Positions 32,201-37,346 of a DNA stretch of 64,000 nt are shown piece by piece; within the stretch, counting starts at the first letter, position 1; each line of letters starts with the position of its first letter. Both the position numbers and the translations under genes were made by a program. The stretch is from Halobellus sp. LT62 (GTDB lineage Archaea > Halobacteriota > Halobacteria > Halobacteriales > Haloferacaceae): positions 1,674,001 to 1,738,000 of the forward strand of contig NZ_JAYEZO010000001.1 of the NCBI RefSeq assembly GCF_037031285.1, read 5' to 3'. The notes beneath the pieces were generated by a model. That model made no database searches, was not told the origin of the DNA, and was given only the letters and a program-made list of their open reading frames with translations.

Positions 32201-32747
32201 CTTAGTTACCTCTACGCGTCTGGTTCGATATACGAACTTTGGTTTTCAGCCGGGTTCTCGGCGGGGTCGGCCGACTGTCTCCCAGCGAGCAGTAGCCACC
32301 CGAGAACGGGCATCTCGTCCGTTTCGCTCGGCATTGCTAAGATATTCAGTAGTTGTGTTCAGTGGATTCATTCAGTGATGAATATTATTGTGTGAAAACG
32401 GGTCAGCCAGCGAATTGGACCGGAGTGATCCCGAAGCCGCCGCGAGTGGTGACAATATCGGGCCCGAAGCACGTACGCCGTGTCGCGCGTGCGAAAGCAC
32501 GAACCGCAAAAATGACTAAAACTGTATAAATATATTTAAGTTATATTTTGTCGCTCCCAAACTCAGTATATTTTCTAATACTACGTGAACAAGGTAGATA
32601 TTGCTTTTATATGCGTTTTAAATAACAAAATAAAGTCATAGTTGATATTGAAAAAGCAACTTAATACAGTATATCTAAATTTCCCGTTATATTGGGATAC
32701 GGTAAAAAAAACGGAACCGTCGGAACGATGCGAGCGTCTCGGTAGCG
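32201..32747. other. AT-rich intergenic island
   Basis: This 547-nt gap lies between the proC start and the hsp20 stop. From about 32510 to 32712 the sequence is strikingly A/T-rich in an otherwise GC-rich window, with runs such as TATAAATATATTTAAG. I found no open frame of useful length. A CGTGC-GAAA-GCACG hairpin lies at 32488-32501 and an ATTCAT/ATGAAT inverted repeat at 32367-32384. The run of eight A at 32704-32711 would be a T-run terminator for the hsp20 operon. Part of the region must hold the proC promoter. Confidence 0.65.
32704..32711 (-). terminator. T-run terminator of the poly-Q/hsp20 operon
   Basis: Eight consecutive A on the plus strand give a T8 run in the minus-strand transcript 37-44 nt after the hsp20 stop. 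Archaeal transcription ends at such T-runs. No stem-loop is needed or obvious. Confidence 0.5.
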
Positions 32748-33236
32748 CTACGGGGAACGGATATCGATCTCTCGGTACCGCTCGCTCGCCGCCTTCGGGA
32801 CCGTGATCTTACAGACGCCGTCGTCGAAGACGGCATCGATTTCGTCCATCTCGACGTCAGTCGGGAACTGGATCACGCGGTCGATCTGTACGGTCCGCTC
32901 GTTGATCAGGACGTTCCGGCCGTCCTCGATCTCCGAGGGTCGAGTCGCGCTGACGTGGAGCGTCCGCGGATCGCCCTCGAGTTGGATCTCCTCGGGCTTG
33001 AATCCCGGCAGATCGATGAACACCCAGATTTCGTCCGTGTTCTCGATGAGATCGATCGAGGGCGTCGGAGCCATCGGGAGCCCACCGACAGCGGACCCCG
33101 GGGCGGTCTCCATCTGCGGTGACGGGGTCAGCGCCTCCGGACCCGCCGATTGCGGCGACTGGCCCGATACCTGTTCGGTCGACCAGCCCCTCGATGGCGC
33201 GTACGGTGCTTGTGATCCGTAGGGTTCTGAAGACAT
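32748..33236 (-). CDS. Hsp20/alpha-crystallin small heat-shock protein
   Basis: A 162-aa chaperone with an alpha-crystallin domain in the C-terminal 100 residues: IDLIENTDEIWVFIDLPGFK, then TLHVSATRPSE, NVLINERTVQIDR, and FDDGVCKITVPK. The final I-x-I-type tail is DIRSP. The N-terminal 60 residues are Ser/Pro/Gln/Gly-rich, resembling the neighbour's composition. Small Hsps hold unfolding proteins. It begins 5 nt after the stop of the Gln/Pro-rich gene, so both come from one transcript. Confidence 0.92.
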   Translation of the reverse strand: MSSEPYGSQAPYAPSRGWSTEQVSGQSPQSAGPEALTPSPQMETAPGSAVGGLPMAPTPSIDLIENTDEIWVFIDLPGFKPEEIQLEGDPRTLHVSATRPSEIEDGRNVLINERTVQIDRVIQFPTDVEMDEIDAVFDDGVCKITVPKAASERYREIDIRSP

Positions 33237-33241
33237 CTTAC

Positions 33242-34612
33242 TTACGAGAGTGACCCCGATTGGAGCCGGGGAATGCTCTGTTCGATAGAACCGTTCGTCT
33301 GTTGGATCCGGCTCAAGACCTCTTGGATTTCGGGTTCGTTGGAGTGCTGCTGGAGCTCTCGGCTCGCGCCTTGGATGGTCCGCTGGAGTTCTCTGGCGGC
33401 TCCAGAAGCGAACGGCGAGTCGCGCAGCATGAACTCCTTGGTCATCTCCGCGCAGTCGTGGACGTCCTCACAGGCTCGCGCTGCCGATCCGTTTCCGCGC
33501 TGTGTGAGTCGCGTCTTCGCCCAGTCGAGGACGTTGTTGAGGTGGTTCACGTCCTCGATGGCGGCCCGCACCTCCTGTGGGACCGACTGCTCGTACTGGC
33601 TGCCGAGGAGCATCGTCTGTTGCCCCGCCGTCGGGCTCCACTCGGAAGCGCCGGGCTGCTGGCTCGACTGCTCGAACTGACCCGATAGTCCCTGTCCCGG
33701 TGTGCTCTGTCCGTACTGTCCCAACGTCTGTTGGGTCTGGGCGAGCGGAATCTCGGACGGCTGGGTCTGCATCGCCGCACTGGGCTGTGCCTGCGTCGAC
33801 GAAGACCGCTGTTGCATCGCCGCAACGGGGCTCACTTGGACCGGCTGTGATCCCGATTGTGACGTCCCTGAGACCGATTCAGGCGTCTGCATCGCTGCGC
33901 CCTGCGACTGGGATCCTGCCGGCTGTTGCGGCGCGAACGACTGCGGCTGGATCGCTGCGGGCGGAGAGTACTGCTGTGTCCCTTCGGACGGCCGGGACTG
34001 TTGCTGTGCTGTCTGTGACTGCCCGGAGGGAGACTGTGCTGGCTGCTGCTGCGGCTGCCCTCCCTGTCCCTGTTGTCCCGAGATCGACTGCCGCGGTTGC
34101 GACTGCTGTGACGGCTGCTGTCCGAACGACTGCTGGGACGGCTGCTGTCCGGACTGGTAGCCACCGGCAGTCGCTTGCCGACCATACGGCTGCGATTGCT
34201 GCTGCGGCTGCTGCGATTGCTGCTGCGGCTGCTGCGATTGCTGCTGCGGCTGCTGCGATTGCTGCTGCGGTTGCAGTTGTTGCGGCTGTTGCGGCTGCTG
34301 CTGCGGTTGCAGTTGTTGTGGCTGCTGCTGCGGCTGCTGCGATTGCTGTGTCGGCGGCTGTTGTGGTTGGGTCTGTGCCTGTTGCGGTTGCGCCGGGGAC
34401 TGCTGTGGGTGCGTCTGCGGCTGTTGGGTGTACGCCGAGATCGGCTGCTGGGGTGATTGAACTGGTGCCTGTGTGGGCTGGCTCCCTTGTGTCTGTGTGG
34501 GCTGCGCCTGCACGGGCTGCCCCCCTGCGGGCTGCTGTGACGGCAGCTGCTGATACTGGCTCTGTTGCTCCACTGGTGACGGTTGTGGTTGGTTCGGATC
34601 TACCATAGTCAT
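33242..34612 (-). CDS. Gln/Pro-rich prion-like protein with C-terminal helical domain
   Basis: A 456-aa protein that is unlike its acidic neighbours. About the first 340 residues consist almost wholly of Gln, Pro, Ser, Ala and Gly, including QQPQQQSQQ repeats. The last 115 residues form a folded, probably all-helical domain (VPQEVRAAIEDVNHLNNVL, CEDVHDCAEMTKEFMLRD, EIQEVLSRIQQTNGSIEQS). No signal peptide or membrane span is seen, so it is cytoplasmic. ATGs at 34612 and 34606 are both possible starts. It leads an operon with hsp20. I do not recognise the family. The composition suggests a disordered region able to self-associate or bind, tethered to a helical domain. Confidence 0.75.
   Translation of the reverse strand: MTMVDPNQPQPSPVEQQSQYQQLPSQQPAGGQPVQAQPTQTQGSQPTQAPVQSPQQPISAYTQQPQTHPQQSPAQPQQAQTQPQQPPTQQSQQPQQQPQQLQPQQQPQQPQQLQPQQQSQQPQQQSQQPQQQSQQPQQQSQPYGRQATAGGYQSGQQPSQQSFGQQPSQQSQPRQSISGQQGQGGQPQQQPAQSPSGQSQTAQQQSRPSEGTQQYSPPAAIQPQSFAPQQPAGSQSQGAAMQTPESVSGTSQSGSQPVQVSPVAAMQQRSSSTQAQPSAAMQTQPSEIPLAQTQQTLGQYGQSTPGQGLSGQFEQSSQQPGASEWSPTAGQQTMLLGSQYEQSVPQEVRAAIEDVNHLNNVLDWAKTRLTQRGNGSAARACEDVHDCAEMTKEFMLRDSPFASGAARELQRTIQGASRELQQHSNEPEIQEVLSRIQQTNGSIEQSIPRLQSGSLS
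34191..34274 (-). repeat. four tandem 21-bp repeats encoding poly-Q/P
   Basis: Four copies in exact 21-bp register (34191, 34212, 34233, 34254), each TGCGATTGCTGCTGCGGCTGC on the plus strand except one mismatch in the last. They encode QQPQQQS. Degenerate copies continue to about 34350. Confidence 0.85.
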
Positions 34613-34942
34613 TCCCCGAGGGTGACCCCGGGACAGAAACAGCGTTGATCTGGAACCAGTATTGTAATTCAGTGTGTATTCAAAATTCCGGCAGCCGTAC
34701 TGAGAAGCCCGTTCACGCGTGGTTTCGCCTATTTCACGTGAAGGGAGAACTTACCGGTCGGGGGCGAGTCGCCGGCGTCGTCGGATACACCGAAATTACT
34801 GCGAACGTGACACAGACTACCCGTCAGCGAATTTATGCCACCGAACCGACGAACCGCGCCTCCCGACCAATCCTCGAAGCGAACGTTCGGACCACTTCGA
34901 TAGCGGGGCCAAGGCTGTCTTCGACCGAGAGACGTACCGGGG
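34613..34942. other. intergenic region upstream of the poly-Q/hsp20 operon
   Basis: The gap holds the operon promoter. ATTGTAAT at 34661-34668 reads ATTACAAT on the minus strand, 49-56 nt before the ATG at 34612. A GGGTGACCCC palindrome at 34620-34629 overlaps the likely leader and could be an operator. No gene is seen. Confidence 0.4.
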
Positions 34943-36229
34943 TTATCCCCATCTGGTGACGGCGAGTGCGCCGGCGAACAACGCGACAACCAAGACGGAG
35001 AGGCCCGGATTCGGTCCCCGCCACGAGGAGTCCGGCGCGGAGGTGGACGGTTCTGCGGTCTCCGTGTCCGGAGACTCCGGCGTCGAGGTGGCAGTCGTCG
35101 GTGGGTCGGCCGTCGCCGTGGGCGTCGGTTCGAACACGGTGACCGTTCGAGAGACGTTGTGTTCGGCCGCGCCGACGGTGACGTTTAGCTCACCCGTCAT
35201 CCAGACGTTGCTCCGATACTGCAGTTCGACCGTCGACGATCCGTTCTCGGCGACATCCGTTCGCTGTTCGTCGATGAAGTGACCGTCGATCGTCAGCCGA
35301 ACGGGGACTGTTCCGGAGATATCGCCGACGTTGCCGACGGTCGCGTCAACGATCAGTGGCTCTCCTGCGGGCACTCTTTCGGGAATATCGACCGACTGTA
35401 CCTCGAATTCGGGTTCGGGTTCGACGAACTCGACGCGCTCGCTCACGACGTCGTCGGAGGTGTTCGCCGTGATACGGTGCGCTCCGGCGTCCTCGATCGA
35501 CGTGTTGAGTTCGGTCGTCACCGTCTTCGAATCCCCTTCGGGCAGTTCGATGATGGTTTCGTTGACGGTGTCGCCGTCGAGGGTGAACCAGACAAGTTTC
35601 TCGCCGAGATCACGACCGGTGTTTTCGACGGTCGCGTTCATCCTGAGGGTATCGCCCGCGAGAACCGATTCTTCGACGTGCATATCAGTGATCTGGAAGT
35701 GGGGGTGTCCGTCGGATCCGGTGGGCCCTCCGGAACTGCCCCGCGACGTGCGAGTCTGCGCCGGCTCTTCGATTGTTACGGTCTCCGTATACCGATCGTC
35801 CGGTGTATCGACTCGCAGCGTCCAGTCCTTCGCGTTCTCGCTCTTGCTGACGTACGTGAGCGTTACCGTCTCCGACTCGCCGGGAGACAACTGGAATTCA
35901 GCGTCGTCCTTGTAGTACTGGTCGAGGTGGAACCACACCTCCTTTTCCCCGGTTTCGTTACCCACGTTTTCGACGGTAACGGTTACTTCGACGGTCTCAC
36001 CGGCCTTTATCGGCGTGTTTGTCTCCACCTCTTGAATCTGGAAAAACGGGCCGATTCGCTCCGGCTCGGTCTCGTTCTCCGCGACCTGTAGGTGGACCTC
36101 GGACGCACCGATGTCTGCTGGGGCCGCCACGGCGACGCCGACGCCGCTTGCTCCCGCCATCGCGAGCACGAGCACGCACCCGAACAGCGCAGCCCAACCG
36201 AACAGCTCCGGTCGTGATATGTTGACCAT
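34943..36229 (-). CDS. secreted three-CARDB protein with PGF-CTERM-like tail
   Basis: A 428-aa surface protein. A Sec signal (LFGWAALFGCVLVLAMAG) precedes three CARDB-like beta-sandwich domains starting near FFQIQEVETNTPIKAGETVEV, FQITDMHVEESVLAGDTLRM and FEVQSVDIPERVPAGEPLIV. A Thr/Pro/Ser/Glu-rich stalk leads to GPNPGLSVLVVALFAGALAV and a short basic end, close to the archaeosortase PGF-CTERM pattern but with PGL. CARDB domains mediate adhesion or binding at surfaces. I chose the ATG at 36229 because TAGTATAC at 36258-36265 sits 29-36 nt upstream; a GTG at 36244 is possible. Confidence 0.82.
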   Translation of the reverse strand: MVNISRPELFGWAALFGCVLVLAMAGASGVGVAVAAPADIGASEVHLQVAENETEPERIGPFFQIQEVETNTPIKAGETVEVTVTVENVGNETGEKEVWFHLDQYYKDDAEFQLSPGESETVTLTYVSKSENAKDWTLRVDTPDDRYTETVTIEEPAQTRTSRGSSGGPTGSDGHPHFQITDMHVEESVLAGDTLRMNATVENTGRDLGEKLVWFTLDGDTVNETIIELPEGDSKTVTTELNTSIEDAGAHRITANTSDDVVSERVEFVEPEPEFEVQSVDIPERVPAGEPLIVDATVGNVGDISGTVPVRLTIDGHFIDEQRTDVAENGSSTVELQYRSNVWMTGELNVTVGAAEHNVSRTVTVFEPTPTATADPPTTATSTPESPDTETAEPSTSAPDSSWRGPNPGLSVLVVALFAGALAVTRWG

Positions 36230-36257
36230 ACGAATGAGATTCACGTCCGTACCGCAA

Positions 36258-36443: not shown

Positions 36444-37346
36444 ATGGTGCACACGCACCTCAGTAGACGGCAGTTCGTTGGTACAGTCACCGCCGTAACC
36501 ACCGTTGGCCTCGCAGGCTGCGGTGGCGACGGAACCGGAAACGGTGGAGAAGACGACAGCGGCGGGACCGAGGAGACGAACGGTTCCCCGACAACGACTG
36601 AGACGGACGCCCCCACAGAGACTGAGGCCACGACAGAGGCCGAAGAAACGACGACCGAAGGCGGCGATGGCGACGCACTCGTACGCGTGGTGCACGCCGC
36701 GCCCGACGCGCCGAACGTCGACGTCTACGTCGACGACGAGGCCGCGCTGAGCGACGTCGCCTTCCGAAGCGTCAGCGAGTACCTCTCGCTCGCGGCGGGG
36801 TCATACCAAGTGCAGATAACCGCCGCGGGAGACCAAGAGACGGTCGTCTTCGACGACGAGGTCGAGGTTTCGGAGGGATCGGCGACGTCACTCGTCGCGC
36901 TCGGCGAACTGGAGGCCGAGACGTTCGAGGTCCAGGCCTTCGAGGACGACGTCTCCGCCGCGGGCGCGGAGGAGTCTCGAGTCCGTGCGTTGCACGCGTC
37001 GCCTGACGCTCCGGCGGTCGACGTCGCCGTCGAAGGCGAGGAGGAACCGCTGATCTCCGAACTCGCGTTCGGCGAGGCCAGCGACTACGCCACTGTTCCG
37101 TCCGGCGCATACACCCTTGAGGTCCGAGCCGCCGGCGAGAGCGAAGCTGTCGCCTCCTTCGACGTCGAACTGGCGTCGATGACCGGCTACACGGCGTTCG
37201 CTATGGGGTATCTGAACCCGGACGAGGCGGCGGCGGACGAACCGTTCGACCTCACACTCGCGACCGACACGGTCGAGAGCGAAGCGACTGCGACCGCCAA
37301 CGGAACGGAGATGACCGAAGAAACGACTGCAGCCACGACGGAGTAG
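36444..37346 (+). CDS. DUF4397 lipoprotein with two repeats
   Basis: A 300-aa exported lipoprotein. The start SRRQFVGTVTAVTTVGLAGC has a Tat-like RR and a lipobox ending at Cys. A Thr/Glu/Gly-rich linker follows, then two copies of DUF4397: VRVVHAAPDAPNVDVYVDD and VRALHASPDAPAVDVAVEG, each with SEYLSLAAGSYQVQI- or SDYATVPSGAYTLEV-type strands. The C-terminus is again Thr-rich. DUF4397 proteins are surface beta-domain proteins of unknown function. It is divergent from the CARDB gene. Confidence 0.88.
   Translation: MVHTHLSRRQFVGTVTAVTTVGLAGCGGDGTGNGGEDDSGGTEETNGSPTTTETDAPTETEATTEAEETTTEGGDGDALVRVVHAAPDAPNVDVYVDDEAALSDVAFRSVSEYLSLAAGSYQVQITAAGDQETVVFDDEVEVSEGSATSLVALGELEAETFEVQAFEDDVSAAGAEESRVRALHASPDAPAVDVAVEGEEEPLISELAFGEASDYATVPSGAYTLEVRAAGESEAVASFDVELASMTGYTAFAMGYLNPDEAAADEPFDLTLATDTVESEATATANGTEMTEETTAATTE

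Follow-up and report, generated by a model that had tools for sequence, protein, structure and literature searches.

The window, the whole stretch of 64,000 nucleotides of Halobellus sp. LT62 DNA that was analyzed, contains on its minus strand two adjacent genes separated by 5 nt: a gene encoding a glutamine (Q)-rich protein (33242–34606, 454 aa) and, downstream of it, hsp20 (32748–33236, 162 aa). The sequence-only reading, which had placed a Q-rich ORF of 456 aa 5 nt ahead of hsp20, described a real gene. Its longer frame spans 33242–34612, and when the upstream DNA was aligned among four Halobellus species, the second ATG (34606), which begins the conserved sequence MVDP, proved to be the conserved start. 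About 55 nt upstream of this start lies the block ATTACAATAC (34659–34668, minus strand), which is invariant in the four species and is probably a promoter element or part of one; a promoter at this position agrees with the 330-nt gap between the Q-rich gene and its upstream gene. Orthologs of the Q-rich protein are present in the three other Halobellus species (63–83% identity), and distant relatives were found in other families.

Most of the Q-rich protein is a low-complexity tract of about 335 residues (33602–34606, minus strand) composed of Q, P, S, A, and G, with 36% Q, 15% P, and 14% S. Its first 336 residues include 11 charged residues, 10 aromatic residues, 1 Asn, and 50 Pro. With 30% Q, the whole ORF is by far the richest in the window, the runner-up among ORFs of at least 150 aa having 8.5%, and its codon-position GC resembles that of coding sequence. 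Both the unusual Gln richness and the low-complexity region, previously put at about 340 residues, were thus borne out. Four exact 21-bp repeats had also been reported. There is indeed a tandem array of QQP/QQS units inside the tract (34189–34360, minus strand; 8.2 copies at 78%), in which three exact repeats can be seen by eye, the fourth having one mismatch. No family match to the Q-rich protein was obtained in Pfam or NCBIfam. A SEIPL motif (33743–33757, minus strand), kept in three of the four Halobellus partners, is speculatively a possible I-P-[VLI] motif for docking into the groove of the small heat-shock protein (sHSP).

Prion domains of the Q/N type are Q/N-rich, with low Pro and low charge. 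Because the tract is nearly devoid of Asn and about 15% of it is Pro, classical amyloid-type prion behavior is doubtful, and the earlier label "prion-like" holds only loosely, for a Q/P-rich tract in which the longest Q run is 3.

The identity of the downstream gene is firm, since its product matches PF00011 with 56.2 bits (cut-off 20.8; E = 4e-15); its score of 70.7 bits against the archaeal Hsp14 equivalog NF041799 is below the 100-bit cut-off of that model. As the sequence-only reading had stated, the N-terminal arm (63 aa) is biased toward Ser, Pro, and Gln. The alpha-crystallin domain (ACD; 32760–33047, minus strand) ends with an I-x-I-type motif, EIDI, and an I-x-[FVI] C-terminal motif is found in most of the Hsp20 clade described below. 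Cys142 (codon 32811–32813, minus strand) replaces the Leu of the canonical nGVL, giving the clade signature GVC; a Cys in this position was found in 26 of the 28 Hsp20s of the linked set and in 0 of 94 other Hsp20s. Downstream of hsp20 there is a strongly AT-rich intergenic stretch (32520–32700), and L040 has a comparable stretch in the downstream position.

The module is flanked in the window by genes for a CARDB-domain surface protein (34943–36244, minus strand) and, divergently, a DUF4397 lipoprotein (36444–37346, plus strand). The Q-rich gene and its hsp20 co-occur in the same 4 of 17 Halobellus genomes, which are also the four with the upstream CARDB gene; these genomes may share descent, so that their co-occurrence is weaker than the order-wide test given below. 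In one genome (G015), the order of the module block is kept and the outer flanks differ.

Ancestry of the C-terminal domain

The Q-rich tract is followed, after about residue 338, by a C-terminal domain of 115 residues (33245–33601, minus strand), in which Pfam did not detect DUF326. The AlphaFold model of this domain is an antiparallel four-helix bundle (pLDDT 89.7), and the list returned for it by Foldseek was dominated by chains of the copper-storage proteins (Csp), with TM values of 0.5–0.7. VIA aligned the model to Csp with Z of 12–13, and at similar Z also to pectin methylesterase/invertase inhibitors and designed bundles. Because four-helix bundles are common, the predicted fold is supportive of a Csp ancestry and is no proof by itself. 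A PDB sequence search with the profile of the domain returned mostly designed helical proteins and reached Csp only at E values of 2–4, which we did not count as support.

Profiles made the ancestry visible. In a single-sequence search, a Cys-rich DUF326 paralog of the same genome matched the domain weakly, with an E value of 0.0025. A profile of seven domains found matches in 217 of 392 haloarchaeal genomes, the upper layer of which consists of proteins mostly with Q-rich flanks, while the lower layer includes Csp-like proteins (E = 1e-12 to 1e-19); examples of the Cys-rich ones belong to DUF326, the copper-storage family. When a Halobellus-only profile was compared with a Csp-only profile by hhalign, the E value was 3e-6 and the probability 88. 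By these profile comparisons, the C-terminal domain descends from the DUF326/Csp copper-storage proteins.

The core of the Csp3 bundle contains 16–19 Cys (PMC10155185). In the haloarchaeal Csp-like proteins we counted 14–17 Cys, in many of the stand-alone Q-rich forms 4–9 (1–2 in a few), and in the hsp20-linked domains 0–2, namely 2 in the window, 1–2 in Halobellus, and 0 in Halobaculum. Because the linked domains keep so few Cys, copper storage is unlikely to survive in them. The question that the sequence-only reading had attached to this domain, whether it belongs to a well-known family of clear function, therefore has a divided answer: the family can be traced, and its function was probably not inherited along with the fold, the copper-binding Cys being gone. 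Several haloarchaeal families commonly have stand-alone proteins in which a Csp-like domain, mostly with 4–5 Cys, sits between Q/G-rich flanks, with no hsp20 nearby (L036, L037, L038, and L044–L071).

Distribution of the gene pair among haloarchaea

To define the distribution of the pair, 392 haloarchaeal genomes, a sample of a larger order, were searched with a profile built from the Hsp20s of the four Halobellus genomes (E ≤ 1e-17), and neighboring ORFs were called Q-rich at a threshold of 15%–18% Q set by us. The 28 matches comprised 21 with a Q-rich ORF upstream, 4 in which a Q-rich tract and an ACD are fused in one ORF (L147, L153, L154, and L158), and 3 with neither. In all 21 linked cases, the Q-rich ORF is directly upstream on the same strand, at −4 to +17 nt from the most plausible hsp20 start, and the stop and start codons often overlap. 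The Q content of the upstream ORFs is 20%–46%. This clade of linked or fused Hsp20s is represented in 25 genomes, which belong to 13 genera and five families, so that the idea of a pair confined to Halobellus was rejected once the search had been made from the Hsp20 side.

As a control, we surveyed 98 Hsp20 ORFs from 35 genomes; the linked Hsp20s of two of these genomes (G049 and G050), part of the first set, were outside the survey. The Hsp20 of the window was the sole positive, and none of the other 97 had a Q-rich ORF within about 1.5 kb. Although the search profile included the Q-biased arm, the neighboring genes had no part in the selection, and a tree and a search made with the ACD only agree with it. 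In the tree, all the linked Hsp20s are on one side of a single branch (support 78), and linkage as a trait requires 1 change, compared with 25.4 in shuffles. The branch that also includes L155 has a support of 96. This Hsp20 ORF (L155, 775–1971), at the base of the linked clade, has a long N-terminal arm rich in Arg and Glu instead of Q, and its start codon is uncertain. In the ACD-only search, the 25 linked members scored 111–134 bits and the next best match 94.5 bits; as the profile was built from linked members, their high scores are expected, and the informative part is the gap from 94.5 to 111 bits, into which no unlinked genome fell among the 392.

The C-termini of the partners vary. Some have the Csp-like domain, others a short helical motif or no evident domain, and the Csp-like domain is absent from most partners outside Halobellus and Halobaculum. 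Because the C-termini differ while the Q-rich tract persists, the tract, and not a folded domain, is the common element of the partners. In the 25 partners, IP[VLI] motifs were observed 10 times (2.6 expected), in 7 of the proteins, a count that IP-containing repeats may inflate; no enrichment of I.[VI] motifs was found in the same partners.

In Halobaculum, the pair is located on megaplasmids beside orc1/cdc6 in several species (L249, L250, L253, and L254), where the partner is annotated as a hypothetical protein and keeps the Csp-derived domain without any Cys. A TRAM protein lies beyond orc1/cdc6. A peroxiredoxin is often nearby, and in several species an FAD oxidoreductase accompanies it near the module.

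Interpretation and comparison with known systems

The proposal of the sequence-only reading that chaperone and Q-rich protein form a module is strongly supported by the one-to-one linkage in 25 genomes, the spacing typical of translational coupling, and the natural gene fusions; homologs retain both the tract and the hsp20 neighbor. Linkage alone does not distinguish a scaffold from a client or a regulator. The explanation that we rate highest, at about even chances, is that the two genes are co-expressed and that the disordered Q-rich protein co-assembles with its dedicated sHSP, as a split sequestrase condensate similar to that of Hsp42. The ACD and the C-terminal I-x-I motif would build the sHSP oligomer, and its Q/S/P-rich arm would mix with the tract of the partner by like-with-like low-complexity contacts, the tract being in effect a low-complexity arm of the sHSP, separate from it or, in certain species, joined to it. 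IP[VL] motifs of the partner could help by docking into the sHSP groove; a role for SEIPL and the IP[VLI] excess in such docking, as in BAG3, is speculative. The Csp-derived four-helix domain, no longer storing copper, might serve as a multimerizing or anchoring end. Under stress, which may also induce the module, the condensate would collect misfolded proteins and keep them refoldable. Against reading the tract as an arm stands the window itself, where it is a separate gene and not part of the sHSP chain.

The same evidence has to be weighed against four other explanations. The pair could be a dedicated chaperone and its client, the Q-rich protein having a non-proteostatic function of its own (for example, as part of an assembly for structure or storage) and the Hsp20 merely keeping an aggregation-prone protein soluble. 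The tight operon arrangement, in which stop and start codons overlap, the expected aggregation-prone nature of the partner, and lineage-specific C-terminal domains suited to different jobs would all fit such a relationship, which we nevertheless consider rather unlikely: in four genomes the tract is fused to the ACD, for which an arm or a partner is the better description, and stand-alone Q-rich Csp-like proteins are common without a linked hsp20, so that the tract alone demands no chaperone. Because the tract can belong to the sHSP chain itself, the Q-rich protein is less likely a client than a co-assembling partner. A module for sensing copper or thiol stress, or for responding to it, would account for the DUF326/Csp ancestry, for the Cys conserved in 26 of 28 Hsp20s, and for the peroxiredoxin and FAD oxidoreductase genes in Halobaculum; it is improbable, though, given that the loss of Cys implies the loss of copper storage and that most partners outside Halobellus and Halobaculum have no such domain at all.

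The surface of a polyhydroxyalkanoate granule would suit, on general grounds, a phasin-like protein that is helical, Q-rich, and Cys-poor, together with an sHSP. The PHA synthase (TIGR01836) was found in just three Halobellus genomes, all without the module, and in none of the four that bear it, which largely refutes a granule coat within this genus and makes it a very improbable explanation. Finally, repeat slippage readily lengthens Q-rich tracts, and the 21-bp tandem repeats could be taken as a sign that a functionless ORF happens to precede hsp20; with linkage seen in 13 genera and in none of the 97 controls, and with the fusions, coincidence is refuted and hardly deserves any credence.

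The near-constant pairing of a distinct sHSP branch with a Q-rich disordered protein points to a system of two parts, as yet unreported in prokaryotes, by which damaged proteins would be collected in condensates. Nothing turned up when the literature was searched for DUF326 in archaea or for haloarchaeal glutamine-rich proteins connected with Hsp20 or with disorder, an absence that is weak evidence. More tentatively than the co-assembly itself, we propose that an sHSP clade evolved with a dedicated Q-rich scaffold, in some cases on a decommissioned copper-storage fold, as a genetically encoded system for stress-responsive membraneless bodies in haloarchaea. If so, the natural fused and split forms would show how Hsp42-like sequestrases can arise.

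Most of the chaperones known to gather misfolded proteins by means of low-complexity arms come from yeast and animals. An archaeal version with two genes or one, tightly linked across 13 genera, would be a simple prokaryotic model for the cooperation between sHSPs and glutamine-rich disorder, operating at molar salt concentrations, which should change the usual chemistry of condensates. The partner domain would also illustrate clearly how a copper-storage fold can be put to another use.

Compared with the archaeal Hsp14/Hsp20 proteins, the Hsp20 of the window has the same PF00011 ACD and I-x-I-type C-terminus, but it belongs to a separate clade, with GVC in place of GVL, a Q-biased arm, and a Q-rich partner gene. 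The partner domain shares its fold with the Csp/DUF326 bundles (Csp1 and Csp3) and has a detectable sequence ancestry in them, including the motif around R-D/Q-S, whereas its Cys were lost (2 in the window and 0 in Halobaculum against the 14–17 of haloarchaeal Csp-like proteins), a Q-rich tract is joined to it, and hsp20 is the neighboring gene. BAG3–sHSP pairs resemble the module in that the partner has I-P-[VL] motifs, candidates for docking into the sHSP groove, although there is no homology and only 7 of the 25 archaeal partners have the motif. In yeast Hsp42, the nearest precedent, the prion-like domain is required for the sequestrase function (PMC6813348, PMC13287201). Because its tract is encoded by a separate gene, the pair of the window is outside the Hsp42 family and would at most work like Hsp42. 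Compared with Hsp42, the archaeal tract is Q/P-rich with almost no Asn, the ACD carries the signature Cys, and the system is usually split into two adjacent genes, as in the window; both combine an sHSP ACD with a long low-complexity tract, and in four archaeal genomes these form one chain, as they do in Hsp42.
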